From Muricea muricata (Eukaryota > Cnidaria > Anthozoa > Malacalcyonacea > Plexauridae), in contig OY979731.1 in the NCBI GenBank assembly GCA_963855995.1, forward strand, positions 1,823,001 through 1,887,000: 64,000 nt of DNA, in the 5' to 3' direction. Positions 33,056 to 62,500 of the stretch are shown in pieces; the first letter of the stretch is position 1, and every line of letters starts with the position of its first letter. A program made the translations under genes and the position numbers. The notes under the pieces are model-generated. The model was given only the letters and a program-made list of their open reading frames with translations. It did not search any database and was not told the DNA's origin.

Positions 33056-34855
33056 CTTGGGGGGAAAAAATTACCTACCGGGCAAGCTATCCTACCGGCA
33101 AAAAATCCCTACCGGATTAACGATCCCTACCGGAAGTGCTACCCTTACCGAAGAAGTGCAACTTCTGCGTGAGGTTGTTGGCAGGACGGACCTGAGCTGC
33201 GAAAACTCCTCGCATTTCATCAATCGTGCTTTTCGCTGCGATGCAACCGCTGGTATTTCTTGCATTTCTGAAACGACATCGTGCATCAGATTTAAACCGA
33301 TGTTATCTAAGAAAACTATAACTGATACACAATTTCGAAGCCGTTTAGCTTTCAGCCTAAGTTGAATTAGAAGCGTCACGCCTAAGCTTCATTTCGCTCC
33401 TTTTAAACCCTTCTATTGCACTGTATTTTCCAATACCCTTGTCGTCTTTTGACGTATGTGAATTGGCAGGCGAGTTGTATACGTTGCGAGTCTATGTTCT
33501 TTGGTGCGAACAACTGTCCAGCTCATTCCCTCTTCCTCTCTTCCTCATCTCTCGGGAGAGAAAGCGCGCTGAATTTCTGAGCGACAATTGCTTGGGTAAA
33601 CAAGCGTTCGTTAGAGCCAAGTACACATACCTCTGACGCACTCTGATTTGCTAGATATCTCTATAGCTTAGCCAGATGTACTGCTAACAGGCGCCACAGC
33701 TAAATATACCTATCGTAATTGCCTCCAACCACAGTGCAAAAGCTGGGGAAAAAAGGCGGATAAATTCGCTGTAAAAACCTCGCTTGAATTACGAACGCAC
33801 GAACCCCACTCGACCTCAGAGTTTGGACATTTGCGAGGTGAAATCCTCGCGAAATTACCGCGAGATTCGTGTTTAGACCCTTTGACAGCTCGACTCTTAC
33901 CTCTGTGATGTAAATACGGCTTTGAAAATCGGTAATCACTTTTAAATTGCCTTTAACGGCTTTGTTTCGTCGTTGCTTCAACGTTGCCAGCCGGCTACGA
34001 AGTAAAATTTTTCCAAACTTTCACAACACACACACACACAGGTGCATTTTACCGCGGGAAAAACGGCATCTGAAACGTCTCGCAAAGCAGCCAATCACGG
34101 CTCGGCGATGTAAACAATCACCTGTAGCACAGCCAATCAGATTGCTCGACGCTCTAGCACAACAAAGCCACCGGGAGAGCGCTTGAATCCAAAAAGCGTG
34201 GTGGGCTCCGCATTTCGTTTTCAATATCGAAATCGTACGGATTTCCTTTTGAAACACAAAGAAATTTCGCTTGTGCCGGCCGAAAAACCGAACACAAGGC
34301 TTTGTCATCGTTTTTTATCGACAATTTGGGGAAGTTTGGGTGTATTTTTAGACAAAAAATAAGCAAATTCGGCCAGCTGCTGCAGAAAAGGTATCGACAG
34401 CTGAAACGCTTTTTCACGTGTAGCTTTAGATATGGCTAAATGCGACCAATAAGCATTAAGTCTTATTTATAAAAACATATTTAAACTGAGTACCGGGTCG
34501 CCATGGCTTTGCGGTCGAAAGCTGTGAATTTTATAAAGTTTAAACGATGCGTATCTAAATACATGTTGAAAATCTCGCCTGATTGTTTCTAAGCGAGCGT
34601 TGTTTTGGCAGTTGAACTTTGCAGCCTAGCAGCCCAGATCTCCAAGGAAGAATTCTTTTAAGACGAAAATGAAATACTTTATAGACGTGGGCATATTAAA
34701 ATTTTATTTGCAATGCATGCTTGAACAGCTGTGCGTTGTCAGCATTTGGCGTTTTGAAGATATTTTAAAACGAATGTATGCATATATGTTAAAATATACG
34801 TACGAAACTTCTACAGATATGGCGTGTCAACGCACTTAATTATTTCAAAACTCTG
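33056..34855. other. Unassigned intergenic sequence, locally GC-richer
   Basis: No exon I can support. It contains CCTACCGG words (33070-33150), a short CA run at 34022-34040 and CCAATCA motifs around 34095-34145. The local rise in GC could mark a promoter or an unrecognised exon, but neither strand gives a frame with protein-like composition and splice support. Confidence 0.4.
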
Positions 34856-35402
34856 ATGTCCAGGTCAAACGAGAACAAAAGTTGCATGAAAGTTGATGGA
34901 GTTGACTGGTGAGAGTTTGTATAAGAGTTATCTCAACTCTCGTGTCCTGGTCAAACGAGAACAAGAGTTGCATGAAAGTGATGAGAGTTGACAAGCAAGA
35001 GTTTGTATGAGAGTTTTCTCAACTCTCCTGTCCTTGTCAAACGAGAACAAGAGTTGCATGAAAGTGATGAGAGTTGACAAGCGAGAGTTTGTATGAGAGT
35101 TTTCTCAACTCTCGTGTCCTTGTCAAACGAGAACAAGAGTTGCATGAGAGTTGACAAGCGAGAGTTTGTATGAGAGTTTTTTCAACTCTCATGTCCTGGT
35201 CAAGCGAGAACAACAGTTGCATGAGAGTTGACGAGAGTTGACAAGCGAGAGTTTGTATGAGGGTTTTCTCAACTTTCATGTCCTGGTCAAGCGAGAGAAA
35301 GAGTTGCATAAGAGTTGATGAGAGTTGACAAGCGAGAGTTTGTGAGAGTTCTCTCAACTCTCATGTCCTGGTCAAACGAGAACAAGAGTTGCACGAAAGT
35401 TT
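34856..35402 (-). repeat. 90-bp GAGAGTTG/CAACTCTC minisatellite, array 1 (reverse orientation)
   Basis: Six or so units containing TCAACTCTCGTGTCCTGGTC, AAACGAGAACAAGAGTTGCA and TGACAAGCGAGAGTTTGTAT. It runs opposite to arrays 2-5. Frames reading through it in either direction are repeat artefacts. Confidence 0.9.
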
Positions 35403-36764: not shown

Positions 36765-37799
36765 CTGCATGAAGACCTGGGGAAACTCCTCATCAACTCT
36801 CATGCAACTCTTGTTCTCGTTTGACCAGGACACGAGAGTTGAGAAAACTCTCATACAAACTCTTGCTTCTCAACTCTCATCAACTCTCATGCAACTCTTG
36901 TTCTCATTTGACCAGGACACGAGAGTTGAGAAAACTCTCATACAAACTCTGGCTTGTCAACTCTCATCAACTCTCATGCAACTCTTGTTCTCATTTGACC
37001 AGGACACGAGAGTTGAGAAAACTCTCATACAAACTCTGGCTTGTCAACTCTCATCAACTCTCATGCAACTCTTGTTCTCATTTGACAAGGACATGAGAGT
37101 TAAAACTCTCATACAAACTTTCGCTTGTTAACTTTCATCAACTCTTGTTCTCGTTTGACCAGGACCTGAGAGTTGAGAAAACTCTCATACAAACTCTCGC
37201 TTGTCAACTCTCATGCAACTCTTGTTCCCGTTTGACCAGGACATGAGAGTTGAGAAAACTCTCATACAAACTCTCGCTTATCAACTCTCATGCAACTCTT
37301 GTTCTCGTTTGACCAGGACATGAGAGTTGAGAAAACTCTCATGCAAACTCTCGCTTGTCAACTCTCATGCAACTCTTGTTCTCGTTTGACCAGGACATGA
37401 GAGTTGAGAAAACTCTCATGCAAACTCTCGCTTGTCAACTCTCATGCAACTCTTGTTCTCGTTTGACCAGGACATGAGAGTTGAGAAAACTCTCATGCAA
37501 ACTCTCGCTTGTCAACTCTCATGCAACTCTTGTTCTCGTTTGACCAGGACATGAGAGTTGAGAAAACTCTCATACAAACTCTCGCTTGTCAACTTTCATC
37601 AGCTTTCATGCAACTCTTGTTCTGGTTTGATTAGGACATGAGAGTTGAGAAAACTCTTATACAAACTATCACTTGTCAACTTTCATCAACTCTCATGCAA
37701 CTCTTCTTCCCGTTTGACCAGGACATGAGAGTTGAGAAACTCTCATACAAACTCTCGCTTGTCAACTCTCATCTCATTTGACCGAAGTCTTCATGCAGT
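36765..37799 (+). repeat. 90-bp minisatellite, array 2, bounded by 13-bp inverted repeats
   Basis: About 12 units of CAACTCTCATGCAACTCTTG, TTCTCGTTTGACCAGGACAT, GAGAGTTGAGAAAACTCTCA and TACAAACTCTCGCTTGTCAA. ACTGCATGAAGAC just left of the array is mirrored by GTCTTCATGCAGT just right of it. It lies immediately downstream (in the minus sense) of the giant coiled-coil gene's stop codon. Confidence 0.9.
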
Positions 37800-37898
37800 G
37801 GCTTTGTGAAATATCCCAATCTTGAGAAACTGTGAATTCAAAAAATGTTGTACAACACAAGAAATATTCTTAGCTATCTGTGCGAATTAATTGGAAAT
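37800..37898 (-). other. Proximal 3' flank / 3' UTR of the giant coiled-coil gene
   Basis: About 100 bp between the stop codon (37899) and minisatellite array 2. I see no AATAAA on the minus strand here, so the polyadenylation site is either non-canonical or inside or beyond the minisatellite. Confidence 0.4.
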
Positions 37899-40800
37899 TT
37901 AATCATTCAAAACAAGCTGCCCATAAACTTCAATTCCACTCAGTCGCAGCGAGTCTTTGCCGGCCTCGTTTTTGCCCGTCTGGCGCACGCGCAGATGTCG
38001 ATATGCCGTGCTGTCGTCATCAATCTTCCATGTTGCGGCCGCATACCCTTTGTCCAGCATCTCGTCGTTCACGTGATTTCTGAGAATGTGCCATACTTTG
38101 CCATCACGTGATCCTTCAAGTACCCAGTTTCTGAGCGCACCAGATACACCGCTCCAACCGTGCTGAGAAAAGAATTAGAGAGAATTTTGATTTGAGGGCC
38201 TGACATGAGAGTTGGGAAACTCTTACACAAACTCTCGCTTGTCAACTCTCTTCAACTCTCATGCAACTCTTGTTCTCGTTTGACCAGGACATGAGAGTTG
38301 AGAAAACTCTCATACAAACTCTCGCTTCTCAACTATCATCAACTCCCATGCAACTCTTGTTCTCGTTTGACCAGGACACGAGAGTTGAGAAAACTCTCAT
38401 ACAAACTCTCGCTTGTCAACTCTCATCAACTCTCATGCAACTCTTGTTCTCGTTGGACCAGGACATGAGAGTTGAGAAAACTCTCGTACAAACTCTCACT
38501 TGTCAACTCTCATGCAACTCTTGTTCTCGTTTGACCAGGACATGAGAGTTGAGAAAACTCCCATACAAACTCTCGCTTGCCAACTATGATCAACTTTTAT
38601 CGTTTGACCAGGACATGAGAGTTGAGAAAACTCTCATACAAACTCTCGCTTCTCAACTATCATCAACTCTCATGCAACTCTTGTTCTCGTTTGACCAGGA
38701 CATGAGAGTTGAGAAAACTCCCATACAAACTCTCGCTTGCCAACTATGATCAACTTTTATCGTTTGACCAGGACATGAGAGTTGAGAAAACTCTCATACA
38801 AACTCTCGCTTCTCAACTCTCATCAACTCTCATGCAACTCTTGTTCTCGTTTGACCAGGACATGAGAGTTGAGAAAACTCATACAAACTCTCGCTTGTCA
38901 ACTCTCATCAACTCTCATGCAACTCTTGTTCTCGTTTGACCAGGACATGAGAGTTGAGAAAACTCTCGTACAAACTCTCACTTGTCAACTCTCATGCAAC
39001 TCTTGTTCTCGTTTGACCAGGACATGAGAGTTGAGAAAACTCTCATACAAACTCTCGCTTGTCAACTCTCATCAACTCTCATCAACTGTCATGCAACTCT
39101 TGTTCTCGTTTGACCAGGACATAAGAGTTGAGAAAACTCTCATACAAACTCTCGCTTGTCATCTCCCATCAACTCTCATGCAACTCTTTGTTCTCGTTTG
39201 ACCAGGACATGAGAGTTGAGAAAACTCCCATACAAACTCTCGCTTGTCAACTATGATCAACTTTTATCTTGCCTTTGACTACTCAACTCCAATACATCAA
39301 CTAAATCTCGTACCCACCTGCAGAGTATACGCTGAAGGTAAAATAGATCGTTTCTCGCCAAAATCAATCTTCCACCATTGATTGGCTTTGTTGCTTGTGC
39401 TGCACCATGATCCCTTGCGATCAGCGACATCAGACGCCTTCCCGTGACCGTAGGATGACCGGCTGATCTTGACCAAGCCAGCCTCGGCCGGATTCTTCCA
39501 CTCCTCCGTCCCACCGCTTGTACCAAGCCAATAGAGTATACCTTGCGTGTCCTTGTTCTCAAAGTCTGCCGGTACTGGAAGAAATATGATTGCATTGTGA
39601 ATGGGGTTCTAAAATCGCACAACTTGTCAACGCTTGTCTTCAGTTGTTGACAAGTCTAGAACAAGTTATTAGGATTTTCTCACAAGATTGATGGGGCCAA
39701 GAGGCTTGCTACAAGTTGTTCCAACAAGTGTGATAGCGTCAAGAAGTTGTTGACAAGATGATGACAACAAGCTCGTGTTACGAACAGTCTGTATTTGTCT
39801 GGTTAGAACAACTCGTAACAAGTCTGTTACCGTGATCAACCTTGTTAGAAGATGATAGCAATCTGTTCCAGACTTGTCGCAACAACTGGGATCAAGAAGT
39901 GCGGACACATTCTGACATCAGCTTCCTACCTCCTCGACTGTTGGTATCTTTGTTGTCTTTTAAGCTGTCTTCGTTTTCAGACACTTCTGCTAGTTCTGCT
40001 ACAGCGAAACCTGTCGAACAATTTAATTTGTTAAAGAGGTAAATGTTTCATGAATGATCATGTTGAGAAGAAAAACTTGTTGGAAGGGATGATACACTAA
40101 TACAAACTGATTTTCAAATGGTGTGTATTAGTCCATGTACATTTCATCCAAATTACAAAGGTCAGACTAATCAGAAGTTTGTCCAGTTAGTGTACGAAGC
40201 TCAGTCTTCTTAAACGTTTGTCCAGCTAATTTACAAAGATCAGTCTAATTACCTACCTTCGCTCCTGCTTGTGTCTAATCCTTCATTCTCCACTGCCGCT
40301 TCATCCTCAGTCTTCACCGGTTGCTTGTCTTTACCCTCTTTGTATCCCCTTGTATCCTCTTCATCTTGTCCCATTCTATCATCCTTACGTCCCTCCGTAT
40401 CCTCACTTACCACCTCTGCTTTGACAACTCTGGCGCCCAGGCTACTTTCGAGCCACGCTGCTTCTAGTTTCTGGCCCAGCCTCTCGTTTTCACGGGTGAG
40501 TTTTTCAAGCGAATTTTTTAATCCTTTGATTTCTTTTTGTTTGCGTTGGACTGCCCTAATAGCGAAAATATTCGGTAATAGTTGAGATAACTGATGGTTC
40601 GTGGATATATGTGGATACTTATGGTTACCTGTGATCTTGGCTTGATTTATCCTGCAGTGCACCCAGATCTTTCAACAATTTGCCCTGTTTGTCCCTCAAT
40701 TCTTGCATATCCTTCATAGTGTTCTTCTCTTGCTGACGTAACTCGTCTATTGTCTTGGTTGCTATCGACAACCGTTTCTGAAGTTCCGTGATTTGCTTTT

Positions 40801-43800
40801 CCTGAATATCGTAGAGAGACTGTGACTTTTCCTTCTTGGAGCTGTCAGCACTGTCTTCCAATTCTTGCGTGACTGTTTCCAAGGTTTGCTTTTGTTTCGA
40901 TAGTTGATTTTGAAGATCGTCGATTTGATCCAATAAAACCTTCAATCATATATATACTGTTCATAGTAATCAGTAATCAAGCGATTCAGAACTTAGCCAC
41001 AAGTATTTTGTTTTACTAATGAAAGGCTCCATCATTTTGTACTTATACCTCACTAAACTCTCAAACAAACTCTCGCTTGTCAACTCTCATCAACTCTCAT
41101 GCAACTCTTGTTCTCGTTTGACCAGCACACGAGAGTTGAGAAACTCTCATACAAACTCTCGCTTGTCAACTCTCATCATCAACTCTCATGCAACTCTTGT
41201 TGTCGTTTGACCAGGACATGAGAGTTGAGAAAACTCTCTTACAAACTCTCGCTTGTCAACTCTCATCAACTCTCATGCAACTCTTGTTCTCGTTTGACCA
41301 GGACATGAGAGTTGAGAAAACTCTCATACAAACTCTCGCTTGTCAACTCTCATCAACTCTCATGCAACTCTTGTTCTCGTTTGACCAGCACACGAGAGTT
41401 GAGAAACTCTCATACAAACTCTCGCTTGTCAACTCTCATCAACTCTCATGCAACTCTTGTTCTCGTTTGACCAGGACATGAGAGTTGAGAAAACTCTCAT
41501 ACAAACTCTCGCTTGTCAACTCTCATGCAACTCTTGTTCTCGTTTGACCAGCACACGAGAGTTGAGAAACTCTCATACAAACTCTCGCTTGTCAACTCTC
41601 ATCAATTCTCATGCAACTCTTGTTCTCGTTTGACCAGGACATGAGAGTTGAGAAAACTCTCATACAAACTCTCGCTTGTCAACTCTCATCAACTCTCATG
41701 CAACTCTTGTTCTCGTTTGACCAGGACATGAGAGTTGAGAAACTCTCATACAAACTCTCGCTTGTCAACTCTCACCAACTCTAATGCAACTCTTGTTCTC
41801 GTTTGACCAGGACATGAGAGTTGAGAAAACTCTCATACAAACTCTCGCTTCTCAACTCTCATCAACTCTCATGCAACTCTTGTTCTCGTTTGACCAGGAC
41901 ATGAAAGTTGAGAAAACCCTCATACAAACTCTCGCTTGTCAACTCTCATCAACTCTCATGCAACTCTTGTTCTCGTTTGACCAGGACATGAGAGTTGAGA
42001 AAACTCTCACACAAACTCTCGTTTGTTATCTTTCTCAAACTCTCATACAACTCTTCTTCTCGTTAAAATTGGGCATACCTTCTCTCTATCTTGTCTGATT
42101 TTATTAATTTCCTGAAAACGTTTTCTCAGATCTTCCCTGGTCTCTCTCTCGTGTTCCATTTGAGATTTCATTTCAACTATCTCGCCGTTCATTTTCTCGT
42201 TCTTTGCAAGTTCCGAATCAACTTGATCCAAGAAGTCCTTAGCCATCTTTCTTTCTTCGGCGAGTTTGCGCTCGAGTTCCGCGACCTAGGTAAGGTTGAA
42301 AAACAATAGGGTTTGAGGTGTTGGCGATAATAATAATAATGGCGATAGCCGTCTACCTTCTCAACTAATTGTTTCTTCTCTTGCTTTATCTTCGAGGTCA
42401 TCTCATTCTTAACTTTATCTTTCTCTTTCTCAACATTCTTCAATATTTCTTCACGAGATTTCTTCTCTTCTTCCAAAGCCACACTCAGTTCTTCCTTTTC
42501 GTATTTACTCAATTCCTTCAAAACATCAATTTCTCGGGATCCATGTTTCTGTCTTTTTTCCAACTCCTTGATCACCCGGTTAAGTTCCTCCATTTGCCGT
42601 CGTTGTTTCGAACAGTGTGCGGTGGATTTCTTGAGTTCTTTCTCAAGCTCTTCAATGTGTTTAAGGCGTTCACGTTTTTCTTTCCGCAGTCTCTCGATCT
42701 CCCGTCGAACCTAAGAAACAAAGTCTTGAATTAATTCTTGTTGCTCATTTGAGCACAGAAAGAACACGTGTTGTTTCAGATCTTAAAATAAAGTTGTTGT
42801 TAAGCTACGTTTGGAACAATCTGTTAACAACTTGTAACAAGCTTGATGGGACTGTCAGACTTGGTACAAGGTTGTTCTAGTACTGATACAGTCATGATAT
42901 AACAGTATTGTTAGAGCCTTGTGTTGTCAACTTTGTGACAATCTTGTTACAACAGGTCTGTATCAGACTTGTTACAAGGTTGTTCCAACAAGCTGATACA
43001 GTCATGATATAACAGTATTGTTACAGCCTTGTGTTGTCAACTTTGTGACAATCTTGCTACAACAGGCCTGTATCAGACTTGTTACGAGGTTGCTCTAACA
43101 AGGCTGATACAGATATAACAGTATTGTTACAGCCTTGTGTTGTCAACTTTGTGACAATCTTGTTTCAACAGGTCTGTATCAGACTTGTTACGAGGTTGTT
43201 CTAACAAGGTGATACAGTCATGATATATAGTGACAACACAAGGCTGTAACAATATTGTTACTTCATGACTGTATCAGTCTTGTTCGAACAACCTTGTAAC
43301 ATGTCTGATAGTCCCATCAAGCTTGTCACAAGTTGTTAACAGCCTGTTTCAAGGTATGGAACAAAACTTCTTGACAGACTTGCGATAAGATGAGAAAATC
43401 TCTGGTGGTCAATTCTCCCTATTTATACCTCTGTTACCCCATATCACCTTACCTCGCGCTGTGTTCGCTGTTCCATCTCTCTGACTTCAGTAATGACGTC
43501 ATCTGACTCCTTGTTGTAAGATCTCTCTACTTCCAAGAGTCGTTTCCACGTTTCCATTTGCTCGGCCATTCTTTCTTGCCGACGAACCTGACGATATTAA
43601 CACAGATACGATGTATACCCCGGTTTTGACATGTCATTTTTACTGCTTCATCGGTATTTTATCGATATGCAATATATACAGGGTGTATCAAAAAAAAGGT
43701 AATCGAACTTTGATGTGCTCTAGAGCGTTCAATATTTAACATACAGAAATAATTCTTACTTAGTTGGAAAGACCAGGCTTTTAGATTTTAATTGCCATCG

Positions 43801-46800
43801 TTGTTATAAAATTTGAAGAAAAATCAAGCAAATACAAATGCGATAAAAATTGCAGGTCGAAATCGCATTTTTTCACCGTTGGGAGTTTATTGAAAATCTG
43901 TTGAAATTTAATCCTATTAGGGAATTAAATTACAAAATTAATTGGCCAATTTTAGCTTAGGTAGTAAACGTCTGGCATTTTATGAGTGATGTTAATTGTT
44001 TCTCGTGACAGATAAATGATTAATGAAATTTTCTTTTCTTATTTGCTGCCCTAATAATGCTCAGAGGTGGAAATATGCGATTTCGACCGGCTATTTTCAT
44101 TTGATTCGTATTTGCCCCATCTTTCTTCAAATTTCACAAAAAATGATGGCAATCGAAAGCTAAAAGCCTGGTCTATTCGCCTGCGAAAGAATATTTCTGT
44201 AGATTGTATAATGAACGCGTCAGAGCGCTGCAAAGTTCGATTACCTTTTTTTGATACACCCTGTATAAGATATAAGTTAGTAAGTTAGTAAGTTAGTAAG
44301 TTAGTAAGTTAGTAAGTTAGTAAGTTAGTAAGTTAGTAAGAGAAACATTGGGCTTACTTCTTCATCGACTCGTTCTCGCAATTCTTCGATTTCCTGACAT
44401 CTTTGTTGGTTAAGCTCTGACGCTTCTCTTGTTACCAGTCTTTTAAACAGCGCTCTTCCTCCGGCCGTTGCCAGGATGATAATAAACGCCATCTTTTGAA
44501 GATAACCGTTGCTATGCACCAGGGTGATGGTTGAGATAACGATGCACACGAATAATATATCCAGTAGAAGACGCCTGAGTTGAATTGGATGAATTTTTAG
44601 TAAACTCACTGCTGAGTTAAGCATGGTTAGATCATGCAGAGGTAGTACATGTTCTTGAATGTGAGCTATCTTAAAATGATCTGTTGTTGTACAGAACTCG
44701 CTGTCAGATTAAGCACTGACAAGTTTTATACTCCAGTAAAATAACGTAGTTCAATTACCTCATTTTTGTATCGCATGATTTGTCGCAACCCGCCTCAGTC
44801 TTCTTAAGAGCGACAAAAACGGCACAGCCAATGAGCGGCAATAACGACAACGCGAAATACTCCGCATAGAACAACCACAGAAAGGCCAAGAAACAGGCAA
44901 CAAAAACTGCCCCAACTTTCCAGAATCGTTTCAACTCCTTAACTTTGCAGCCGTTCAACTTCTGAGGGACACTTGGGAGTGACTTTGTGATATCCCTAGT
45001 TGCTTGCTTGAGATCCTGCAAGATCCATCGTTTCTCCTCGTTGTCCACATCATCTTCAGCCAGATGCGTGCGCATGGTCTTGAAGAGGTCTATTTTCTCC
45101 TTCACGTGATTCTCTGCCATCGATTTCAATGCTTGCTCCAGAGCCCTCTTGTCTTGTCCGCGATAGGAGCCAGATCTTTCCAGCAGGTTTTCGATGTCTT
45201 TTCCTTCCTGTATCGTCCAAGTCAGCTTGGCTATGATCAGTTTTTGGTTCTCGTTTCTAAAATTATAGAAGCAGTGAAAAATTCAAGGACTTCGGTTCTC
45301 GGAGCAAGCGCCTTTCATCTCTGAGATCGTGGGTTTGATCGTCACTTCAGACTCATGACATTTGCATGAAAAGAGTTAGTCAACGCCTTTACAAAGGTCG
45401 TGGGTTTTCTCCAGGTACTCTGGTTTCCTCCCACAGGGAATGTTGACAGGATGGGTTGAGATTAGCTCCTAACTGATCCTTCCATCGTATCAGTGCTCCG
45501 TGATCAAACATGAGTCTTAAGGTCCTTGTCTGAGGCATCCTAGAAAGCCTTCGATCATTCAATATGTTATGCCACCTCGAGGAAAACTGTCTACGCTTAC
45601 CTGCCATGTTCGACTTTCAATTGTCGTTCAAGTGCTGCTATTGCGTGTTTCTGTTTAGTGACAACTTCCAAATGCTTTTCCACGAGCGTAGATAGTTCAT
45701 GTATTTCCTGACTGCTTTCCAGACTTCGTTCAGCCTCCACGTTTAACTCTTCGGCCAGTTTCGCTACCTAGAGATAAAGTTGGACACAAAGTGAACACCA
45801 GAAAGAGCAAGCACAACCCGAGGGGCAAAATTAATTTTTTCAATGACAAGTGAACGTTTTTTGCAAATCAAAGACAACAAACGCAAACCTTACGAGCTGG
45901 GTATGAACACAAGCGTCTGATGTGCCCTGCGTCAGTATTTCGAGTGAAAATTATACGCATTTGGAAATTCAAGCCGTGAATGGGCAGCCCCTGAAATTCA
46001 AATTTTTTCCCCGCGGCAAAAAACTGCCGTCCTGAATCCGTCTTTTCTGTTTCACGACGGCAATAGCGGAATTCACGGCGGCATTATTTTGAAAATTACT
46101 TTTATTTTGCCAAAAAAGCCCGATGGTACTGCTTGATTATGATATTTCATTTTTTCATTCTTCTCGCAGCAAAATACAGCGGCATTTTCAATTGTAAAAT
46201 TTATTTAAAAATTCTACTCAATACTCACCTTTTTATGGCAAAACAAAAACGTTCGTGATCAGCGGTTCGGATTGCAGACTGATGAAGAGACGAAAATTCT
46301 TCATCAAACTTGTTTTCCAGTGAATAATAACAGTGAAAAAAAGTTTGCGTCTAACTCTTTTGACCGTACATCGTCAAAAATATGACAATGGCAAAAAACA
46401 TATCTCTTGCCGATCAAGATGATAAGCAATCTTGCTTCTCCGTCGATAATAAACAATTCCTTGCCGATATCGTAAAATTTATTCACGTAGGCAAAAAAGT
46501 GCCGTCGTGATATGCTATTTTCACTATTCACGTCGGCAATTACTATGGCAATTGCCGAATGCCGCCGCGAATTTCAAGAGCTGATGGGTGAAAAAATTCA
46601 TCATCAACTACAGGTCCTCCGGCAGGAATCGAACCCAGGCCTTTGCGACGATGCTACAATCCTGTAACCACTAACCTTTACCGCCAACCTGTTGGCCGAC
46701 ATTACCAGCCTTAATACTCATAAATTTTGCTTGCTGTTGCGTCAGCTGCACCAACATCGCAAAGGCCTAGGTTCGATCACTGCCGGAGGACCTATAGTTG

Positions 46801-49800
46801 ATGATGAATTTGTCTCGACTGTTCCCGGTGAATTCCGACATGTTTATGATTTCCACTCGAATTCATACACATTTACCCTCAGGCAAAGTGCCACATCCTG
46901 TCCCCACTTATCCCCACATACCTCGTTCCGAGATTTGAGGATAAACCAGAACATAAAAGCGACGACTACAGACAGTAAAGTAAGAACACCAGAACCAAGC
47001 AAGAATGATCCTCGACAAACAACCACAAACAGAACTCCCGCAATGACTAGCACGGCGAACAATCCCCCCAGCTTTTTCTCGTCTCTCGAATTCTTCATAA
47101 CGCTCGCCGTCAGCGCCTGGAAGCGCTCAAGAGCCGCTCTTTTTTTCGCGTCCTTCTGTTCGTCATCTTGTCGGATTTCCTGCAGTATTTTCTCCGTGGA
47201 CAGGTCGACTCCTTCCCCGTCGATAATGTCTCGTAATTTCTGCTCGAGTTTCTTGATGAGCTTGTCTTTCTGCTGTAGAATGCCTTCGTTTGTCCTTAAT
47301 TTCGCTTTCAATTGTTTTCCTTCTTCAGTCAGTGTTTTCCTCATTTCAGTCAAAGCTTCGACCGTTTTAGCTTTTTCTGCCAACTCTAGCCCGAGTTCCT
47401 TCGTTGCTTCAGGATCCCGCGCGGTCGTCGTGCCCGACCTCCCTTCTTTCGACCCGGTCCTTTTCGCGAGCTCGTTTTTCTCGACAGTTTCCGACGCGAC
47501 CCGAACAATCAACTGCTCAACGGTTTTCCTCAAGCTTTGATTTTCCTCGTAAATATCACCGACCGCCTTGGACAGTGCGTCGTTCGCCTCCCCCGGTTTT
47601 AAAATCTTTCTGCACCCTCCTGTCTCCTTCCATATAAGGTAACCCAAGGTCGTGAGGTAGAGTAGGACACACGTCATCACCACGTGCGTCGGAAATTGAC
47701 TGAAAAGAACCGGGACGGAAATCAGAATCAAAATCAGCGATATCCAGCTATAATTCCAGATAACGTCTTGTTTCTTGTTCAACGGTCCAGTATTTTTACC
47801 AAAAATACCGTCTTTATGCTTTTTTTCTTTTCCTTGCATTAGTTTCAGACATTCTTGTTCGATATCTGCATCGTTTTCGAAATTTTTCGTCTCTTTTCCG
47901 ATGTTGTATTCAAGCTCAATCAGACGGCGCATGTCCTCTACACTGCCGCTCACTCCATGTTTTATGTCGATTGCAGGCTCGTGTATGAGTTTCCCCTTGA
48001 GTTCTTGAACCTCGTTTTGATACACGGCAATGACTTCTTCACCTAAGAAGAAATGGTATTATTTATAAACTTTCATGTAACTCGCTCGTCAACTCTCGTC
48101 AACTCTCATGCAACTCTTGTACTCATTTGACCAGGACATGAGAGTTGAGAAAACTCTCGTACAAACTCTTGTTTGTCAACTCTCATCAACTCTCATGCAA
48201 CTCTTGTTCTCGTTTGACCAGGACATGAGAGTTGAGAAAACTCTCGTACAAACTCTCGCTTGTCAACTCTCATCAACTCTCATGCAACTCTTGTTCTCGT
48301 TTCACTAGGACATGAGAGTTGAGAAAACTCTCATACAAACTCTCGCTTGTCAACTCATCGTTTCTCGTGTACCTTCAGATATCAGTTTTCTCATCATGTC
48401 CTTTTCTTCTTTCTTGGCTTGCATGACTTCGTCCAACTCCGCTTTCAAATCATCCACTTCTCGCGTCTTCTCCTCCAGTTTATCTCGGACTCCTTCAAGA
48501 ACTTCCACATCTTCCTTCAAGCTTTCATTTTCCTGCTTCAATCGTTCCCGCGATTGTTCAATGGCCCGAATTTCCTCCACGTATCGCTCTTCTTCACTCC
48601 AGAATTTCTGTTCAATGTCCTCGCTCAGCCTTTTGTCATTCAACCTGGAAATAAACAAGACAACTCGTGTATTCTTTTTATACTATCTCATTTTATGTCA
48701 TAGAAAGCTGCTGTACAACTAGACACGTAAAACGCACAACAAACTCGCAACAAGTCTGTTCGCAAGCTGTTGACAAGTTCGCACTGCTTGTTTTAAGTTA
48801 AAAGAAACAAATTCCGAAAAATAAAGTCATCTGGCAATTCAAGATATGAATAAAATAAGACAAACAATTGAAACTGTAAACTTTCGACTTTATTTCAAAA
48901 TTTACAGTTTCAGTTGTTTGTCTTGTCGAGATGACTTTATTTTTCGGAATTTGTTTCTTTTTATATTTTCTTAAATTGTCGGCTGGCTGTGGTTTTTGTT
49001 TCAAGTTGTTGGAACAAGTTTGGAACAAGCTTGATGGGACTGTCAGATTTGTTACGAGGTTGTTGCAACAAGACTGATACAGTCATGATATAGCAATATT
49101 GTTACAGTCTTGTGTTGTCAACTTTGTGACAATCTTGTTACAACAGGTCTGTATCAGAGTTGTTAGGACATCCTTGTAACAGGTGTGATTTTCCCGTCAA
49201 GCTTGTTACAAGTTGTTCCAAACTTGTTGACAATCAGTTCCAACACAACTTGTTGCCAGATTTGCTACTAGTTTTGAGACTGAAAAAAAATAGTTTCTAA
49301 TTTGTTTTTAATTCAAACAAGTTGTTAGCTCTTAAAATGCGGCGTTTGACCCAGTTTTGAGAGAGATTACCTTGCTTTCTTTTGCGATTCGAGCTTGTCA
49401 CTTAACTCTTTAACGGCTTCTTGTAGCGTCTCTTTTTCTTCACTCATCCTCTTGGCTTTCGCTTCATTCTCTTTCAGCGTTTCTTCCTTCTGCATTCGTT
49501 CATCTTTTAAGTTTTCTTCTAGCTCAAGAACTTGTTGTTTCAACTTCTTGCATTCATGGTCATGGCGACGTTTCTCTTTCATGAATTCGGCCTGGTGTTG
49601 TTTTCGTGCCATTTCGCGGATGCTTTTTGGGTCGTTGGTTTTGTTGGCTTCTTTTTCGCGTCTCAATTCACCTTGTAATTCATTCATTTCTTTGTCTTTT
49701 TCCGCGACCAGCTTTGCTTCTTCCTCGATGTAATCTTTGACCTAAAATTTTGTTTAGATATAAATTAAGCTATATTTTCTTCTCTTATTGCTCGGGTGTT

Positions 49801-52800
49801 AGTACTTATAAACAAACTGGCGAAAGTTGTACGTGTAGTACAACACAGTCAATCGTATTGTAAATAGCTTGTGAAATTCTTTGTCTTAATAAATCTGTTG
49901 GCCAAGTAATATGAGGTTTACTTAAGATAGAATACCTCTAATAAATCGGAATTAAGATTCTTAATTTTGGCATCTTTTTCTGCTATTGTTTCCTTCATAA
50001 CAGCCATTTCCATCAATATTGTTCTCTCGCGTTCTTCCACTTCATTCTCCCGTCTTTTCATTTCGTTTTCCATTAGTTCCAACTGTTTTCTTTGCAACAA
50101 AATATCTTCTTCAACTCCGTGGACCTTCTTCTCTTTCCACTCAACCTGCAAGGGAAAAAACAGGGTGGAAGTTGCAAACTGTTCCATTGTCTTTTCATTG
50201 TTTTAAAAATCTCACTGTTTTTCATGTCGTCCAGTCATAATCCAGAGATCAGAATGTTCCATTGTCTTTTCATTGTTTTGAAAATCTCACTGTTCTCCAT
50301 GTCACCCAGTCATGATCCAGTGATGAGAATGTTCCATTGTCTTTTCATTATTTTGAAAATCTCACTGTTCTCCATGTCACTCAGTCATGATCCAGTCATC
50401 AGAATGTTCCATTGTCTTTTCGCTTATTTCAAGGACGATGACGAACTTAAAGAACTATCCAGTTACCTCTTTTCGTACATCATCTTTTTCTCGCTTGTGT
50501 CTTTTAATTTCTTTATCTTTTTGATCAATTGTCTTGCAGTGCTGGTCAATCTGGTCTTTAAGATCCTGTACTAAGCTGTCTTTCTCGTTCACTTGTCGTT
50601 CATACGATTCCAAATCATACATTTGAGACTCTAGGAGAATCTGGCGAACATATAAAATAATACAAAGTCAGACCAGCGTAATTTTATATAAAAAAGTTTT
50701 CAACTTTTAGTAACAACAGTAGTAAAACTACTTTAGAAGAAAGTCTTTTAAATCGATTCAATGGATCACCTTTTCTTCTTCTATGGCTTTTTGCAGCGTA
50801 GCCAACTGATCATCTTTGAAACTAATCTGTGTTCGTAGATCGCTGTTCAATGCTTCCAATTTTGTAACCTGTGGTGAGAATGGCGGAGTTCATTTGTTCT
50901 CATATTTGTATCCAAATTGCATTCACTGTTGTTTTCATCAACTTGCATCAAGTCTGCGAATTCAGACTTGATACAAGTTTACAGTTACTGCAAGTTGTTA
51001 AACCTTGTGGATAATAAAATCTTGAGGATCAACTTGCGGCAGACTTGTGATCATCAAGCCGGAGCAAGCGATGTGAACGCATCCTGATATCGGCTTGATG
51101 ACTGCAAGTAACAAGCCTGCAGCAGACTTGCTGCAATTTGCGCGTTTTCGACTGGGTAACTCAACTACATTCACTAGAAGTTGCACTTTGTCATTTACCA
51201 GCTAACACGAAGGGTACTAACTGACATGGAATGTCATAATATGTCTATCCTAACCTCGTATTCTTTCTCTTCCAAAGTGTTCGCAATGAACTGCAAATCT
51301 TCGCTTGATTTCCTCAAATATTCCAACTCTTGTTCCCTTCGTTCCAAGTTATTCTTGACCACGTTCAATTCACTTCTCAACTCTTTCATCTTCTCATCTT
51401 TTCCTTGTAGTTCTCGTTGAAGATCATTGACATCATTCCTCACCAGTTCAGTCTTCAATTCATTCACAAGACGAGTTAGGCTCGCTATTTTCTCCTGTTG
51501 ACTTTGAGCGTCTTCAACTTTCTCTTCTAGACTTTTGTCCAACTCAGCAACTCGTTCGATCGCCTCTTCGGCGTTAGCTTTGAAATCGTTCATGACTTTG
51601 TCCTTTATCCAAACTTTTTCTTGAAACTCTTTCAGAACCTGGAAGCAGAAAAGATCTCGTTAAATTCTTTATTAGTTTAACTTGCGCGCAAATTGAGATC
51701 CGATGTACACGCTTAAAAATCTCACAATGTGAAATAAAGGTTTTGAGTGACTGATAAAACCCAGAAATAATGTTCACGTTAAAGTCACTCTTTGTGTCTT
51801 AGAAGTTCAATTTATCGGTGTCATTGCTTTTTATGCCTTCGTGCGGCAGTTCAAAACTGATAGTACAACCGATATACAGACCTGTTGTCACAAAAATGAC
51901 AGCACAAGGCTGTGACAATATTGTTATATCATGACTGTATCAGTCTTGTTGAAACAACCTTGCAACAGGTCCGATAGTCCCCTCAAGCTTGATACAAGTT
52001 CTTAACACCTTGTTCCAAACTTGTTTCAACAACTTGAAACAAACGGAACTTGTCAACAGTTTGTGAACAAAGTTGTTTGTAGGTGTAGTGTAGCTGTGTC
52101 TTCTCGTCTCATACGAACAGATTCTAATACCTTCTCTTTTTCCTGAAGCTCGTTTTCTTTTTCTTCCATCCTGTCTTTCAACCTGTTGTGCATTTCAGTG
52201 AGTTCCCTATACTTTCTTTCGAGCTCTTTGAAGTGTCTGTTCTGTCGAGAATATTGATGTAATTTTACACGGAGTTCCTCTTTTGTTTCTCCTAGTTCGC
52301 GTTTCACCTGGTCGTGCTTTACTTTGATTTCATCATAACCTGCGATAAACAAGAGTATTCAAAAATGACGTGTTTAAATAGTGGACAGGGTTGGTTGAAT
52401 GTAGCTCCTAACTGCTCCTAGCATCGTAGCTGTGCTCCATGATCGCACATGAGTCATAGGGTTGAGTCATGAGGCGGTCATTAACTAAAACGGTCGCTAG
52501 TATGACATACTTGAACCGACCTTATCGCGTAGTTCAGTTGGCAAAGCATTGGGCTAGCATTCCAGAGGTCGTAAGTTCGATTCCGGCCGCGTTCGGGCAT
52601 ATTTTTCAGCTTGCTCCGTGTGGATATAAGCTCAGAGTACAAGCAGAAAATAGAGCTATTCATACCTCTGCGATATTCATCAAATTTCTCCTTCATTTTA
52701 TCATGGTCGTCTTTAAATTTGCTCGCAGCTCTCCTTTCTTTGTCTATTTGAGACTTGGCTTCCACCGTTTCTTTCTTCTGTTCTTCTGCTTTGCTCTGCG

Positions 52801-54451
52801 CTTGTTCCTGCTCGCTTTTCATGTTCTTCAATTGCAGTTTAACATCGTTCAAAAGTCGCTTGCTTACGTCAGCGTCCCTCTTCATGCGCTGAAAGTCTTG
52901 CCTGAAGAAAGGTTCAAAAATTCAAAACTAAATTAACTCTATTTATACTGGATAGCTCTATCAGTTCTAAACTGTTCTTCCTAGGGGTCAAGTAAGGCTC
53001 ATCTCTTATTGATCCAGTATTACTACAGGAGAAAACCTAAACTAAACTAACTTTATTCATACTGGATAGCTCTATTAGTTCTAAACTGTTCTTCCTAGAG
53101 GTCCAGCAAGGATCATCTCTAATTGATTCAGTATTACTACAGGAGGAAACCTAAACTAAACTAACTTTATTTTTACTGGATAGCTCTGTCAGTTCTAAAC
53201 TGTTCTTCCTAGAGGTCCAGTAAGGATAATCTCTTATTGATCCAGTGTTACTACAGGAGGAAACCTAAACTAAACCAACTTTATTTATGCTGGATAGCTC
53301 TATGTGTTTTAAACTGTTCTTCCTAGAGATCCAATAAGGTTCATCTGTTTTTAACGCAGTGTACTTGATTTCTTTCAAAGTGTTCTAATTGAAAAGATAA
53401 TTTCATTGAGTAGTTAATTAGCTATTTAATAAACTAATTACGAACTTTAATTTCTCTCGTTGTTCTTTCAGCTGTTCTATCTCTCGTTCACATTCTCCGA
53501 GATTAAACTTCCACATATCAATTTCCGTTTCCATTTTTTCTTTATTTTTCCTTTCCTGTTGCAACTCATCGCTCAGCTCGTTATTCCTTCTGCTTTGGAT
53601 ATCAATTGTCGCCTTGAGTGACGTCACTTCCGTGTCTCGCGGTGATATGCCTTCACGCGTGGGCTTTACGTCATTTCCACTCTCACCGGACGCGTCCTTC
53701 AGCTTTGCCGCCATGAAATTGAGCTCTGACGTTTGTTCGTTCATTTGACGGATAAGGTTTCGTATCGTGTCCTCTTGCTTGGAAACGAGTTCATCCCTTT
53801 GACAGATAAAAGTGAACTTAGATATAGCCTGCCGCAAACCAGTTACTCGTGCACGTTAGCTCAGCCGATAGCGCACCGTGTGCGAGGTTTATGCTTCATG
53901 CAACCTTTTCTTTCGTATCAAACATGTTTGATGTGGAAGAAAAGTTTGCCCGAGGGGTCGGTTTTACAAAAGGTGAAATAGGGCTATACAGCGGATAGTG
54001 ATTTTTTCAAACTTTACAAACATGTTCAGTAACTAGTAAAACCCATATTAAAGTTCAGCATTTTCGAGTTGAAGTCACTTTTATCTCTTGCAAGTTCAAT
54101 GTTCCTGGTGTTATTGCTTTTTATGCTTTCTGCCGCAGTTGAAACTCCGGCGGATAACGCTATATACCTTTCCTACAACCGACCTTGGTGCTTACCTTTC
54201 TTCATGCCGTTTCTGTAGTTCGGATATTTTCAAATCTTTATCAGCTAACACATTTTTAAGTAAGGAGTTTTTCTTCTGATACTTCGCTAAAGTCCATCTT
54301 AGACGTTTGTTTTCCCGCAGTAACGGTTCTATTAGTTCATTGTCGCTCGATTGATACTCGTCGTCTGAATCCGAAGACATTATTGTTCCGGTGTAACTCA
54401 AGGCTCCCTCGCGGGGCCACGGAAGATGAAGCTAGCTTTGGTTTAAATTGT
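37899..54451 (-). CDS. Giant coiled-coil, multi-hairpin membrane protein with C-terminal F5/8C-like domain, 22 coding exons, about 2,145 aa
   Basis: Coding exons in transcript order: 54380-54196, 53796-53442, 52888-52666, 52339-52131, 51638-51255, 50868-50770, 50640-50467, 50145-49936, 49741-49371, 48644-48373, 48042-46877, 45767-45601, 45256-44759, 44574-44358, 43587-43453, 42710-42357, 42285-42079, 40939-40629, 40555-40257, 40010-39930, 39574-39318, 38162-37899 (stop TAA). Every junction matches in phase and the sum is 6,438 nt. The ATG at 54380 is the first after an in-frame TAG in the same exon, which begins at an acceptor at 54451. The N-terminus is acidic (SSDSDDEYQSSD) with no signal peptide. 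Coiled coil covers about residues 20-900. Hydrophobic pairs follow at about 927-965, 1152-1193, 1386-1421 and 1440-1480, separated by charged helices. A second coiled coil runs about 1485-1910, then an acidic linker. Residues 1972-2145 read as a galactose-binding-like (discoidin/F5/8C-like) fold: WLGTSGGTEEWKNP, NQWWKIDFG, LPSAYTLQ, LRNWVLEGSRDGKVW. I know no family with this whole architecture. Introns carry minisatellites. Confidence 0.85.
38195..39268 (+). repeat. 90-bp minisatellite, array 3
   Basis: About 12 units like array 2, some shortened, with a recurring longer module containing GCTTGCCAACTATGATCAAC then TTTTATCGTTTGACCAGGAC. It fills the last intron of the giant coiled-coil gene, between exons ending 39318 and starting 38162. 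Confidence 0.95.
39595..39925. repeat. Word-repeat element, family C
   Basis: Words such as ACAACTTGT, ACAAGTTGTT, TTGTTGACAAG and AACAAGTCTG in both orientations, in the intron between exons 20 and 21 of the giant gene. It ends within a few bases of the exon 20 donor. Confidence 0.6.
41045..42062 (+). repeat. 90-bp minisatellite, array 4
   Basis: About 11 units (CAACTCTCATGCAACTCTTG; GACCAGGACATGAGAGTTGA), some with the variant GACCAGCACACGAGAGTTGA. The array stops about 17 bp from the donor of exon 17 of the giant gene (42079). Confidence 0.95.
42795..43395. repeat. Word-repeat element, family C, with inverted ends and 3 internal tandem units
   Basis: Ends are inverted: GTTAACAACTTGTAACAAGC...TTGATGGGACTGTCAGAC on the left and GTCTGATAGTCCCATCAAGC...TTGTCACAAGTTGTTAAC on the right. 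Inside, units of about 115 bp repeat GATACAGTCATGATATAACA, GCCTTGTGTTGTCAACTTTG and TGTATCAGACTTGTTAC. Related copies lie at 48985-49265 and 51865-52080. It is intronic in the giant gene. Confidence 0.75.
43679..44263. mobile_element. Inverted-repeat element, 585 bp, Tc1/mariner-like ends
   Basis: Begins CAGGGTGTATCAAAAAAAAG and ends with the complement TTTTTTTGATACACCCTG, flanked by TATA (or TA) on both sides. The arms extend about 190 bp (GGTAATCGAACTTTG...AAAGCCTGGTC). CAGGGTGT-type termini with a TA target are common in Tc1/mariner MITEs. There is no transposase frame. It is intronic in the giant coiled-coil gene. Confidence 0.65.
44272..44340 (+). repeat. 8-bp tandem repeat (AGTTAGTA)n
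   Basis: About eight perfect copies of AAGTTAGT, immediately beside the 585-bp inverted-repeat element and about 18 bp from the donor of exon 14 of the giant gene (44358). Confidence 0.95.
44605..44720 (+). repeat. Single 92-bp repeat unit (same as CRK intron 8)
   Basis: TTAAGCATGGTTAGATCATG, CAGAGGTAGTACATGTTCTT and GAATGTGAGCTATCTTAAAA match the 17555-17990 units almost exactly, 27 kb away. Confidence 0.85.
45285..45560 (+). repeat. tRNA-like SINE, family 1
   Basis: GGAGCAAGCGCCTTTCATCT, CTGAGATCGTGGGTTTGATC, TTTCCTCCCACAGGGAATG and GAGATTAGCTCCTAACTGAT. It is intronic in the giant gene, starting about 25 bp upstream of the acceptor of exon 13 on the minus strand. Confidence 0.8.
45985..46590. 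repeat. Diverged fold-back element with TGCCGTCGTGA-type words
   Basis: Left half has CCGCGGCAAAAAACTGCCGT, TTTCACGACGGCAATAGCGG and TTCACGGCGGCATTATTTTG. Right half has ATTCACGTAGGCAAAAAAGT, GCCGTCGTGATATGC and GAATGCCGCCGCGAATTTC, in inverted arrangement. It is intronic in the giant gene; class unknown. Confidence 0.5.
46608..46812. repeat. Pair of inverted tRNA-like sequences
   Basis: AGGTCCTCCGGCAGGAATCG at 46611 and CGATCACTGCCGGAGGACCT at about 46785 face each other. Each arm carries a B-box-like GGTTCGAT(T/C) and the block GCAAAGGCCTRGGTTCGAT. It is either two head-to-head tRNA-like SINE heads or one fold-back element built from them. It lies about 65 bp from the donor of giant-gene exon 11. 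Confidence 0.6.
48075..48357 (+). repeat. 90-bp minisatellite, array 5
   Basis: About three units (CAACTCTCATGCAACTCTTG; GACCAGGACATGAGAGTTGA) filling the intron between giant-gene exons 10 and 11 and ending about 16 bp from the exon 10 donor (48373). Confidence 0.95.
48806..48963. repeat. Perfect hairpin element, about 158 bp
   Basis: AAACAAATTCCGAAAAATAA and AGTCATCT on the left match AGATGACTTTATTTTTCGGA on the right; the inner arms AAACAATTGAAACTGTAAA and TTTACAGTTTCAGTTGTTT also pair. MITE-like, intronic in the giant gene. Confidence 0.75.
48985..49265. repeat. Word-repeat element, family C
   Basis: Starts GGAACAAGTTTGGAACAAGC...TTGATGGGACTGTCAGAT and ends GTCAAGCTTGTTACAAGTTG...TTCCAAACTTGTTGAC, an inverted-ended element related to 42795-43395 but with one internal unit. 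It is intronic in the giant gene. Confidence 0.7.
50180..50425 (+). repeat. 75-bp tandem repeat, about 3.2 units
   Basis: CCATTGTCTTTTCATT recurs at about 50184, 50259, 50334 and 50409 (period 75 bp), with AAAATCTCACTGTTCTCCAT and GTCACCCAGTCATGATCCAG. The same repeat occurs at 32913-33055. It is intronic in the giant gene. Confidence 0.9.
50925..51145. repeat. Word-repeat element, family A (inverted relative to 3189 and 18465)
   Basis: ACTTGCATCAAGTCTG, GCAAGCGATGTGAACGCATC, CTGATATCGGCTTGATGACT and GTAACAAGCCTGCAGCAGAC. It is intronic in the giant gene, between exons 5 and 6. Confidence 0.7.
51865..52080. repeat. Word-repeat element, family C, partial
   Basis: TGACAGCACAAGGCTGTGAC, AATATTGTTATATCATGACT, GTATCAGTCTTGTTGAAACA and CCTCAAGCTTGATACAAGTT match the right half of 42795-43395. 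It is intronic in the giant gene. Confidence 0.65.
52378..52470 (+). repeat. tRNA-like SINE, family 1, fragment
   Basis: GTGGACAGGGTTGGTTGAAT, GTAGCTCCTAACTGCTCCTA and ATCGTAGCTGTGCTCCATGA: the middle part of family 1, joined directly to the family 2 copy that follows. Confidence 0.6.
52495..52662 (+). repeat. tRNA-like SINE, family 2, best copy
   Basis: CGTAGTTCAGTTGGCAAAGC (A-box-like), GAGGTCGTAAGTTCGATTCC (B-box-like), then GGCATATTTTTCAGCTTGCT and GTGTGGATATAAGCTCAGAG. It ends at the donor of giant-gene exon 3 (minus strand). Confidence 0.7.
52925..53350 (-). repeat. 113/123-bp minisatellite, about 4 units, inverted
   Basis: GGATAGCTCTATCAGTTCTA, AACTGTTCTTCCTAGAGGTC, CAGTAAGGATCATCTCTTAT and ACTACAGGAGGAAACCTAAA: the reverse complement of the ILVBL and p47 intron arrays. 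It fills the intron between giant-gene exons 2 and 3. Confidence 0.9.
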
Positions 54452-59545: not shown

Positions 59546-62500
59546 TTATTATTATTAACTATATTTATCCAGGATACCCACGTCACCGAAGTGATTTTCA
59601 GTGGGGTTCTGCACATCTATCTTACATGAAATTCAGATTTTATGCATGCATTATTTACATCATCAAATTTTAACAATAATTATCTAAACATGAGTTCACA
59701 GAATGCACATGAGTTATACGGTACAAAACAACAAAATACAATAAACACAATACAGTACAATACAATACAATAATGCAATATAATAGAACACAATACAATA
59801 GAACACGGTACAACACAATACATTACTAACTGACTTATCGTGTTTTCAAAAGGTTCTTAAAGTTAGATAACGAAGTTGCGTCTTTTAGTTTCTGTTCCAA
59901 GTTATTGAAATCCACTATAGCTTGATATGTTGGACGTTGTCTTCCTTTGTTAGTCTTAACTCGTGGTAGATGCAGATTGCTACGTTGTCTTGTATTGTGA
60001 TGATGGATGTCTTCATTCTTTGTTAAGTTAAAATCAAAGTCAATTAAGCCATGCATGCATTTGAAGATGAATGTGCATCGGTGATTATGCCTTCTCGTCG
60101 CCAGTGTTGACCATTTAAGTTCTTGTAACGCCTCGGTCGAAGAATATCGCGGATGTTTATCTAAAATGAGCTTTGCAGCCTTGTTCTGAAGCACTTGAAG
60201 CGAGTTCATCAATCCCAGATTGTTCTTGTCACCCCAGATCACGTCACCGTAGTCAAATAAGGGTAAAACTAGTGATGTGTATAACATACAGCGAGTGTTC
60301 AGATCTAAATAATCCTTTATTCTTCTTAATAACCCGAGTCTTTGGTTAATCTTCGACATGATATTGTCAACATGTTCATGCCAAGTTAAATCACTCGTTA
60401 GAGTTACACCAAGATATTTAAGTGATTTTTCTTGCAATATTTTCTTAGTTTGGATACAGATATCTACAGTGGAAGCCACCAGGGTTGGTTGTTTTTTGTT
60501 AGCGAAGATCATAAATTTGGTTTTCTCGTAATTCAATGTTAGGAGGTTGTTGTTTAGCCATTGATTGAGTGAATTCAGATCCTCGTTGATTTTATCCTGT
60601 AGTTCAGTTTCTGTTCTGGCAGTGTAGTAGATTAAAGTATCATCTGCATACAGAATTGATTTGCAGTGTTTCAAACATTGGGGCAACTCATTGATAAATA
60701 TCAGGAAGAGTAGTGGCCCTAGGATACTTCCCTGAGGCACACCCACGGTTACTGGTTTTGGACTTGACGTGATGTTGTTAATGGATGTAACAGCTGTGCG
60801 TAAAGATAAGTAGGATGAAAACCAATTGATAACAGCTTCCGAAAGTCCAATGTGCTTTAATTTTCTTATTAGAAGGGTGTGATCCACTGTGTCGAAGGCT
60901 TTTCGTAAATCAATGAAAACTGCACCGGTATTTAATTTGTTTTCCATATTGTACAGAATTTCCTCCGTAACCTGGGTCAAAGCAACATTTGTGGATAAAT
61001 TCGGGCGAAAACCAAACTGCTCTGAAGTGATAAGTTTGTGTTCCTGTAGATACTTGTAGATTTGTCTATGAACAATGCGCTCCATAATTTTGCTTAAGGT
61101 AGGTAAAATAATGATAGGTCTGTAGTTGTTTGGTGCTGTTGGATCGTTGCATTTGAAGAGGGGAATGATTTTTCCTCTTTTCCAAATATCAGGGAACGTT
61201 TGTAAGGCGAGCGAGGCATTGAAAATCTTCGTTAAACTGGAGGCAATGGTAGAAGCTGAATCTTTTAAGAGCTTGGCACTGATTTGGTCAAGTCCAGTTG
61301 CTTTATTAGTTTTCAGAAATGAAAGTTCTTGATGGACAAATGTTTCGTCGACTTCTTCAAATTCAAAACTGGAGGGCAAATTAGTCAAAGGTGGATGTGG
61401 TTTAGATTGGAATGTACTCTTGATCTTATCTGCCAGTTTTGACCCAATAGACGTGAAGTACTCATTTAGGATTGTTGCCATAGATTTTTGATCAGTGATA
61501 ATTTTATCTTCAGAGATTATACACGACGGACTTGTTTCTGATTTCTTACGAGATGTTAGTTCATTTAATGTTTTCCAACGTTCGGAAGGTTTATCTTTAG
61601 TAGTGATCACTGAGTCTTGGAAGTACTTAGATTTAGCAAGCTTGATTTGGCTATTAACTTGATTTCTTAGTTGACGATAAAGCTGCCAATGATATTCAGA
61701 GTTAGTTTTATGTGCTTGCTTTAGATGATAATCGCGTTCACGCATTAGTTCAGTAAGTTCTGGTGTGATCCAAGGGGATTTACTCGTGCATTTAACTCGT
61801 CTGGTTTTAATAGGAGCGTGTTTGTCTGCAATATTTGAGAATTCTTTGCACCAAGTGTTAACAGAGTCATTAATATCAGATATGGAATCTGTGAAAGACC
61901 AGTCAACGTTCGTGAGATCGTTATTAAATTTGTGTTGATCATAATTCTTATAGCAACGATAATTGATGTCGCGGAAACTTCCTCCCGATTTAGCAACACC
62001 AGCTTTAATTACACAGAAAATCAATGAATGATCACTGATATCTAAAGAATAGACTCCGCTTGCTACCACGCGATGAATATTATTTGGCAAAAATGAGATC
62101 TATTGTTGTTTTACTGGATTGTGTTATTCTAGTTGCCGACGTGATGAGCTGTTCAAATGAAAACGCACGCGCAAGTGTTTGTAGACGTGATTTGGCAGTT
62201 GATCTCTGTTGGTAGTCGACATTGAAATCTCCCATTAGAATGACTTCGGCATTTACTTGGATTTTTGACAAATCGTTCTTGAATTTTTCAATGAAAGTTT
62301 CAATGTTAAAATCTGGTGGTCTATAGGCTGAACAAATAAACAGGGACTATGTTTTAGGACGTATGATTTCAATCCAAGAGGTCTCAATATGACTGCTTTG
62401 CAATTCCCCGCGCGAGCAAAACGGTAGACCATTGCGAACATAAAATGCCGTTCCCCCACCGGTTTTATCTGTACGATCATTTCGAGTTAAAGAGTAATTG

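Follow-up and report, generated by a model that had tools for sequence, protein, structure and literature searches.

What is probably a single gene of 22 exons occupies the minus strand between positions 54380 and 37899 of the window, the 64,000-nucleotide stretch of the Muricea muricata genome analysed here. A splice-aware dynamic program joins the exons, with consistent phases, into one frame of 2,127 residues and a stop codon. This model and its controls bear out the preliminary description of 22 minus-strand exons read in one frame; the large single frame stands, although its length had been put at ~2,145 residues, a discrepancy that comes down to a few junction choices. The automatic model was 2,062 aa long, and four boundaries were then set by hand, i.e. 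the exon 2 donor and the acceptors of exons 3, 18 and 20. Since the method permits nothing but GT-AG introns and open frames, neither of these counts as evidence.

As a control, the same scorer, with start and stop left free, was applied to the gene region and to five further stretches of the window of equal length. The gene region scored 1,216 bits, with the same ATG (54380) and stop (37899) recovered, while its plus strand scored 11 bits and the four remaining stretches 19, 39, 20 and 64 bits (maximum 64). Having been trained on this very gene, the codon table favours it; when a table trained on one half was applied to the other half, the two halves scored 487 and 639 bits in frame, compared with at most 42 and 274 bits out of frame with stop codons skipped. 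Since the control stretches and the out-of-frame readings score so much lower, the gene is real, with a few junctions still open. The free run used 23 exons, one of them an extra exon of 70 bases, and reproduced 16 of the 22 model exons exactly; it departs from the model at exons 2, 3, 12, 14, 18 and 20, and it is there that the boundaries are open. Exon 14 begins at 44511 in the free run, at an acceptor scoring -1.3 versus 4.0 for that of the model, and the first leg of hairpin 4 is lost as a result. The scorer probably shuns this hydrophobic leg because it was trained mostly on coil codons.

All of the parts first described, from an acidic start through a coiled coil, four hydrophobic hairpins, a second coil and an acidic linker to an F5/8C-like domain, are present in that order in the 2,127-residue model, and every exon lies on the minus strand. 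Exon 1 (54196-54380) contains the start codon at 54380, the acidic N-terminus (MSSDSDDEYQ...) and the beginning of coil 1. The coil is continued by exons 2 to 10 (48373-53796 together, about aa 62-828): exons 2 (53442-53796) and 3 (52666-52888), whose mutual junction is uncertain, exons 4 (52131-52339), 5 (51255-51638) and 6 (50770-50868), exons 7 (50467-50640) and 8 (49936-50145), and exons 9 (49371-49741) and 10 (48373-48644). Exon 11 (46922-48042) has 373 complete codons and encodes the end of coil 1, which runs to about aa 870, then hairpin 1 (H1, aa 920-967), a stretch of coil and hairpin 2 (H2, aa 1149-1200). Exon 12 (45601-45767) holds the coil after hairpin 2, and exon 13 (44759-45256) more coil and hairpin 3 (H3, aa 1365-1414), so that coil separates H1 from H2 and H2 from H3. 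Hairpin 4 (H4, aa 1421-1471) lies close to H3 and is encoded by exon 14 (44358-44574) together with the start of coil 2. Exons 15 (43453-43587), 16 (42357-42710), 17 (42079-42285), 18 (40629-40939, acceptor uncertain) and 19 (40257-40555) together encode the second coil, which reaches about aa 1876, and the start of the acidic linker. The linker has a net charge of -10 in a 56-residue window and includes exon 20 (39930-40010, acceptor uncertain). Exons 21 (39318-39565) and 22 (37899-38162) encode the first and second halves of the HECTD1-type F5/8C-like domain (aa 1958-2127), the latter ending in the stop codon.

The 19-residue Kyte-Doolittle maxima of H1 to H4 are 2.0, 2.9, 2.1 and 2.4, and no hydrophobic 19-residue window occurs before aa 919. 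Heptad-like periodicity of 3.5 residues was present (p <= 0.05, uncorrected for the 74 windows overall, against within-window shuffles) in 23 of 28 windows of aa 29-840 and in 10 of 13 windows of aa 1485-1876. Pfam was run on four pieces of the protein (1,849 aa, partly from the first model) and on two pieces with exons 9, 10 and 15; across these six pieces only F5_F8_type_C, in the last two exons, rose above the cut-off, and exon 11 matched no family. Matches to DUF2207_C, PIN_8, feoB, CydC, SMC, ASRP, DUF745, DUF599 and PRKG1_interact all fell below the cut-offs and were set aside as chance. An AlphaFold model of exon 11 was poor (pLDDT 47), a PDB sequence search with the hairpin region gave a best E of 0.016, spectrin SH3 matches in the PDB were dismissed as chance and a viral-contig scan returned nothing of use.

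Several repeats and mobile elements lie in and around the gene. A minisatellite with a unit of 77-87 bp (AACTCTCATG...ATGAGAGTT) is found at 34849-35400, 36790-39262, 41055-42064 and 48081-48356; these arrays fall downstream of the gene and within its introns 10, 17 and 21. A dispersed tandem repeat of 108-123 bp is located at 5794-6264, 9796-10090, 26982-28294 and 52925-53346, one of these arrays being in intron 2. Intron 14 (43588-44357), between the hairpin 4 and coil 2 exons, contains a short element flanked by long inverted ends (ACAGGGTGTATCAAAAAAAGG...CCTTTTTTTTGATACACCCTGT) that, by eye, resembles a small DNA transposon. On the minus strand at 59835-63012 there is a 754-aa reverse-transcriptase-like frame, preceded by an endonuclease-like frame with the sequence GDVETNPGP (both judged by eye); the pair is presumably a non-LTR retrotransposon and GDVETNPGP a 2A-like motif. 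Exon-like frames on the plus strand at about 10900-18100, with an SH3 domain at 18020-18100 (PF07653, E 4.5e-10), mark a neighbouring adaptor-like gene. A GFP-family match (E 9.2e-12) with internal stops is consistent with a cnidarian.

The C-terminal domain matches Pfam PF00754 with 47.4 bits (cut-off 28.2, E 2.6e-12), so its description as F5/8C-like stands, with the correction that the intracellular HECTD1 type is its closest match. The genome contains at least 162 F5/8C places. When it was searched with the domain and 13 places were scored, the gene's own two exons came first, followed at E 0.03 and 0.07 by two neighbouring exons at C4:5.8176-5.8184 Mb; the others had E >=0.15. Joined by eye with the preceding exons (C4:5.816-5.818 Mb), the C4 exons are identical to the window domain at 66 of 158 positions, with a Smith-Waterman score of 308 (300 shuffles: 33 +- 5.5, maximum 53). 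The C4 domain matches Sad1_UNC (E 6e-17) and, barely above the cut-off, F5_F8_type_C (28.4 bits), and HECT-domain exons follow downstream (PF00632, E 6.6e-23, 3.4e-11 and 2.1e-5). The gene is called HECTD1-like on the strength of the SUN-type domain and the HECT exons; the few frames scanned yielded no MIB, ankyrin or armadillo parts. The available excerpt of PMC11947180 gives HECTD1 a C-terminal HECT domain besides its SUN and MIB-HERC2 domains, and that of PMC2837046 puts the number of HECTD1 genes in the cnidarian ancestor at one. The window gene itself shows no HECT domain (PF00632) in the pieces scanned, and its C-terminal domain is not listed for Sad1_UNC at a limit of E 10, with filters that drop most matches above about 0.1.

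In a single-exon comparison across 32 loci, the HECTD1-like exon scored 90, the best of the other F5/8C exons 81 and the loci with Sad1_UNC matches 33-35. The margin over the other F5/8C exons is small. It is the colinear exons, once joined, that carry the HECTD1 link; the HECTD1-like exons were the only ones joined, and other F5/8C genes were compared as single exons. Whole F5/8C chains from the PDB reached at best 20.8 bits against the domain, and a two-sequence profile of the domain, run against the PDB, picked out a GH92 enzyme (E 1.7e-4), an antibody chain (0.01) and then, weakly, FBP32 and factor VIII. On these comparisons the closest relative of the domain in the genome appears to be the SUN-type domain of a HECTD1-like ubiquitin ligase and, because of this kinship, the domain is probably cytosolic. 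A secreted F5/8C protein of the discoidin lectin kind was rejected: the N-terminus is acidic, with nothing hydrophobic ahead of residue 919 in the hydropathy scan that could be a signal peptide, and the domain has its nearest kin in the HECTD1-like gene.

The hairpin region was searched against the 453-Mb genome and 12 candidates were scored. Four places were the gene itself, and the best non-self match (C16:1723214-1723867; E 8.6e-5, 23% identity) falls within an open frame of 906 residues and spans H2 in both proteins; three others (E 0.03-2.7) look like chance. The corresponding gene, referred to as paralog B (C16:1722097-1729164, minus strand, 3 exons, 2,017 aa), lies ~132 kb from the window gene on the same contig and strand. 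It has the same plan, a long coil and four hairpins of which the first two are separated by coil and the last two lie near each other (about aa 1470-1521, 1650-1700, 1888-1931 and 1948-1993, limits by eye), and the hairpin starts are similarly spaced in the window gene and B (H1-H2 229 versus 180 aa, H2-H3 216 versus 238, H3-H4 56 versus 60). A block after H2, encoded by exon 12 (aa 1215-1254 of the window protein), is common to both, with 18 of 40 residues identical (blastp E 5e-4), and when 61-residue windows of the window protein were compared with B at steps of 10, the best three fell in this block. The local score between the two proteins was 128, a value reached by none of 500 window shuffles (mean 71, maximum 126); in global mode the observed score was reached by 3 of 500 shuffles and 0 of 76 rotations. 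The reverse search, from B to the window gene, gave E 0.136, and the N-terminal coils show no significant match (72; 200 shuffles, mean 54, maximum 78), so kinship is weak outside the post-H2 block. As B shows detectable sequence similarity and has its coil and four hairpins in matching order, it falls in one family with the window gene, of which it is likely a distant paralog. Two similar-looking (by eye) frames for multi-pass membrane proteins, at C16:1719233-1720672 and 1731052-1731984, flank B and have no Pfam match at E 0.1; a unit similar to the 108-123-bp tandem repeat also occurs near B (by eye).

B differs from the window gene in having 3 exons rather than 22 and in lacking both coil 2 and the F5/8C-like domain; its stop codon directly follows hairpin 4, and coil 2 and the C-terminal domain are therefore extra in the window gene. 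The coil and four-hairpin body is probably the older part, common to both genes, and coil 2 with the HECTD1-type domain would be either an addition in the window gene or a loss in B. The combination of parts had been put forward as unfamiliar. The literature searched, which left most subscription journals outside, listed no protein or family with this order and no HECTD1 work on cnidarians beyond PMC2837046, but the coil and four-hairpin part is not unique, given the likely paralog 132 kb away.

The abrupt end of B also raises the question of whether two genes have been joined here, exons 1-14 being a B-like gene for a coil and four hairpins and exons 15-22 a separate gene, on the same strand, for a coil and a HECTD1-type domain. 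Reading past exon 14 in the window gene meets a stop after 10 codons, and the 770-bp intron 14 contains repeats and AATAAA/ATTAAA sequences at 43891, 43912 and 43792. Against this, the exon 14 donor (GAA|gtaagc, 3.0) and the exon 15 acceptor (2.6) are both fair and in phase 0, the coil continues across the junction and the free run joins both exons, so that two genes seem unlikely.

The anatomy is read most economically, as first proposed, as that of a membrane scaffold or tether. The fuller reading favoured here, to which we give an even chance, is an animal protein working on the cytosolic side, with a four-hairpin anchor, two coils and a HECTD1-type partner-binding domain; a tethering function would be a further step from the anatomy. 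The four hydrophobic helical hairpins would fix the protein in the membrane, leaving both coils and the C-terminal domain in the cytosol, a topology suggested by the lack of a hydrophobic stretch near the N-terminus and by the pairing of the hydrophobic segments, which makes their number even. Coil 1, of about 850 residues, could form a long dimeric arm (~125 nm at full extension, given the usual helix rise) that either extends to a partner surface or organises it. Coil 2, of about 400 residues, may be a second arm carrying the HECTD1-type SUN/F5-8C-like domain, which might in turn bind a partner, perhaps one in common with the HECTD1 ubiquitin ligase. Most long coiled-coil tethers are attached to their membrane by a single tail; if real, an anchor of four hairpins placed between two coils, with two diverged genes showing it, would represent an alternative means of mounting a long arm. 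The HECTD1-type domain offers a concrete, testable lead to the partner. Animal genomes commonly contain large coiled-coil genes specific to one lineage. A bolder proposal, tentative and somewhat doubtful in our estimation, is that the two genes belong to a family of giant animal membrane proteins, not described so far, that combine coiled coils with four hairpins; one member would have acquired HECTD1's partner-binding domain and would present, or steal, the partner at the tip of a long arm on a membrane.

Two other readings of the same anatomy were weighed. SUN proteins have a membrane segment, a coiled coil and a C-terminal SUN-type domain in that order, which is also the order of the parts here, and the kin domain in the HECTD1-like gene is itself a Sad1_UNC match (6e-17). 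Were the number of true membrane passes odd, coil 2 and the domain would face the lumen of the ER or the perinuclear lumen and would bind a partner there, much as KASH peptides are bound by SUN domains in a LINC-type complex. The eight hydrophobic segments in four hairpins make an even count, however, and the domain's closest kin belongs to a ubiquitin ligase, which renders this arrangement distinctly unlikely. A true SUN protein was rejected on the missing Sad1_UNC listing of the window domain, under the E limit and filters given above, together with the scores at the four loci of genome Sad1_UNC matches, which at 33-35 at best (single exons) are noise. Alternatively, the hairpins might wedge into and bend the membrane as in reticulons and lunapark, with the coils setting the spacing of oligomers. 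Lunapark likewise pairs membrane segments with flanking coils (CC1-TM1-TM2-CC2 in the available excerpt of PMC5021524), but coil 1 far exceeds the length needed for shaping, hairpins of ~40-50 residues equally fit plain two-pass hairpins and, at E 0.01, the window-gene pieces scanned matched neither reticulon nor lunapark families in Pfam; membrane shaping is improbable on this evidence.

The cytosolic scaffold or tether proposed here can be set beside several known systems. Golgins, giantin and p180/kinectin also hold a long coil on a membrane, by a single tail anchor or peripheral attachment, and plant PICC, as far as the available excerpt describes it, has a long coil fixed to the membrane like that of the window gene. 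What marks golgin-type tethers is residence at the Golgi by way of a small-GTPase-binding tail or anchor. To our knowledge, none of these has a four-hairpin block or such a C-terminal domain, and we know of no named family with this order of parts. Lunapark (LNPK) is much shorter, with a zinc finger where the window gene has the F5/8C-like domain. Its closely spaced membrane segments with coiled coils on both sides recall the window gene (PMC5021524, available excerpt), but there is one pair rather than four. SUN-domain proteins differ in that the window domain is nearer to HECTD1 and predicted to be cytosolic, and in the four hairpins. The likeness to HECTD1 lies in the domain, whereas the HECTD1 domains given in the excerpt of PMC11947180 include neither coils nor hairpins. 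Each part of the protein is of a known kind, and the protein as a whole would join the membrane-anchored long coiled-coil scaffolds.
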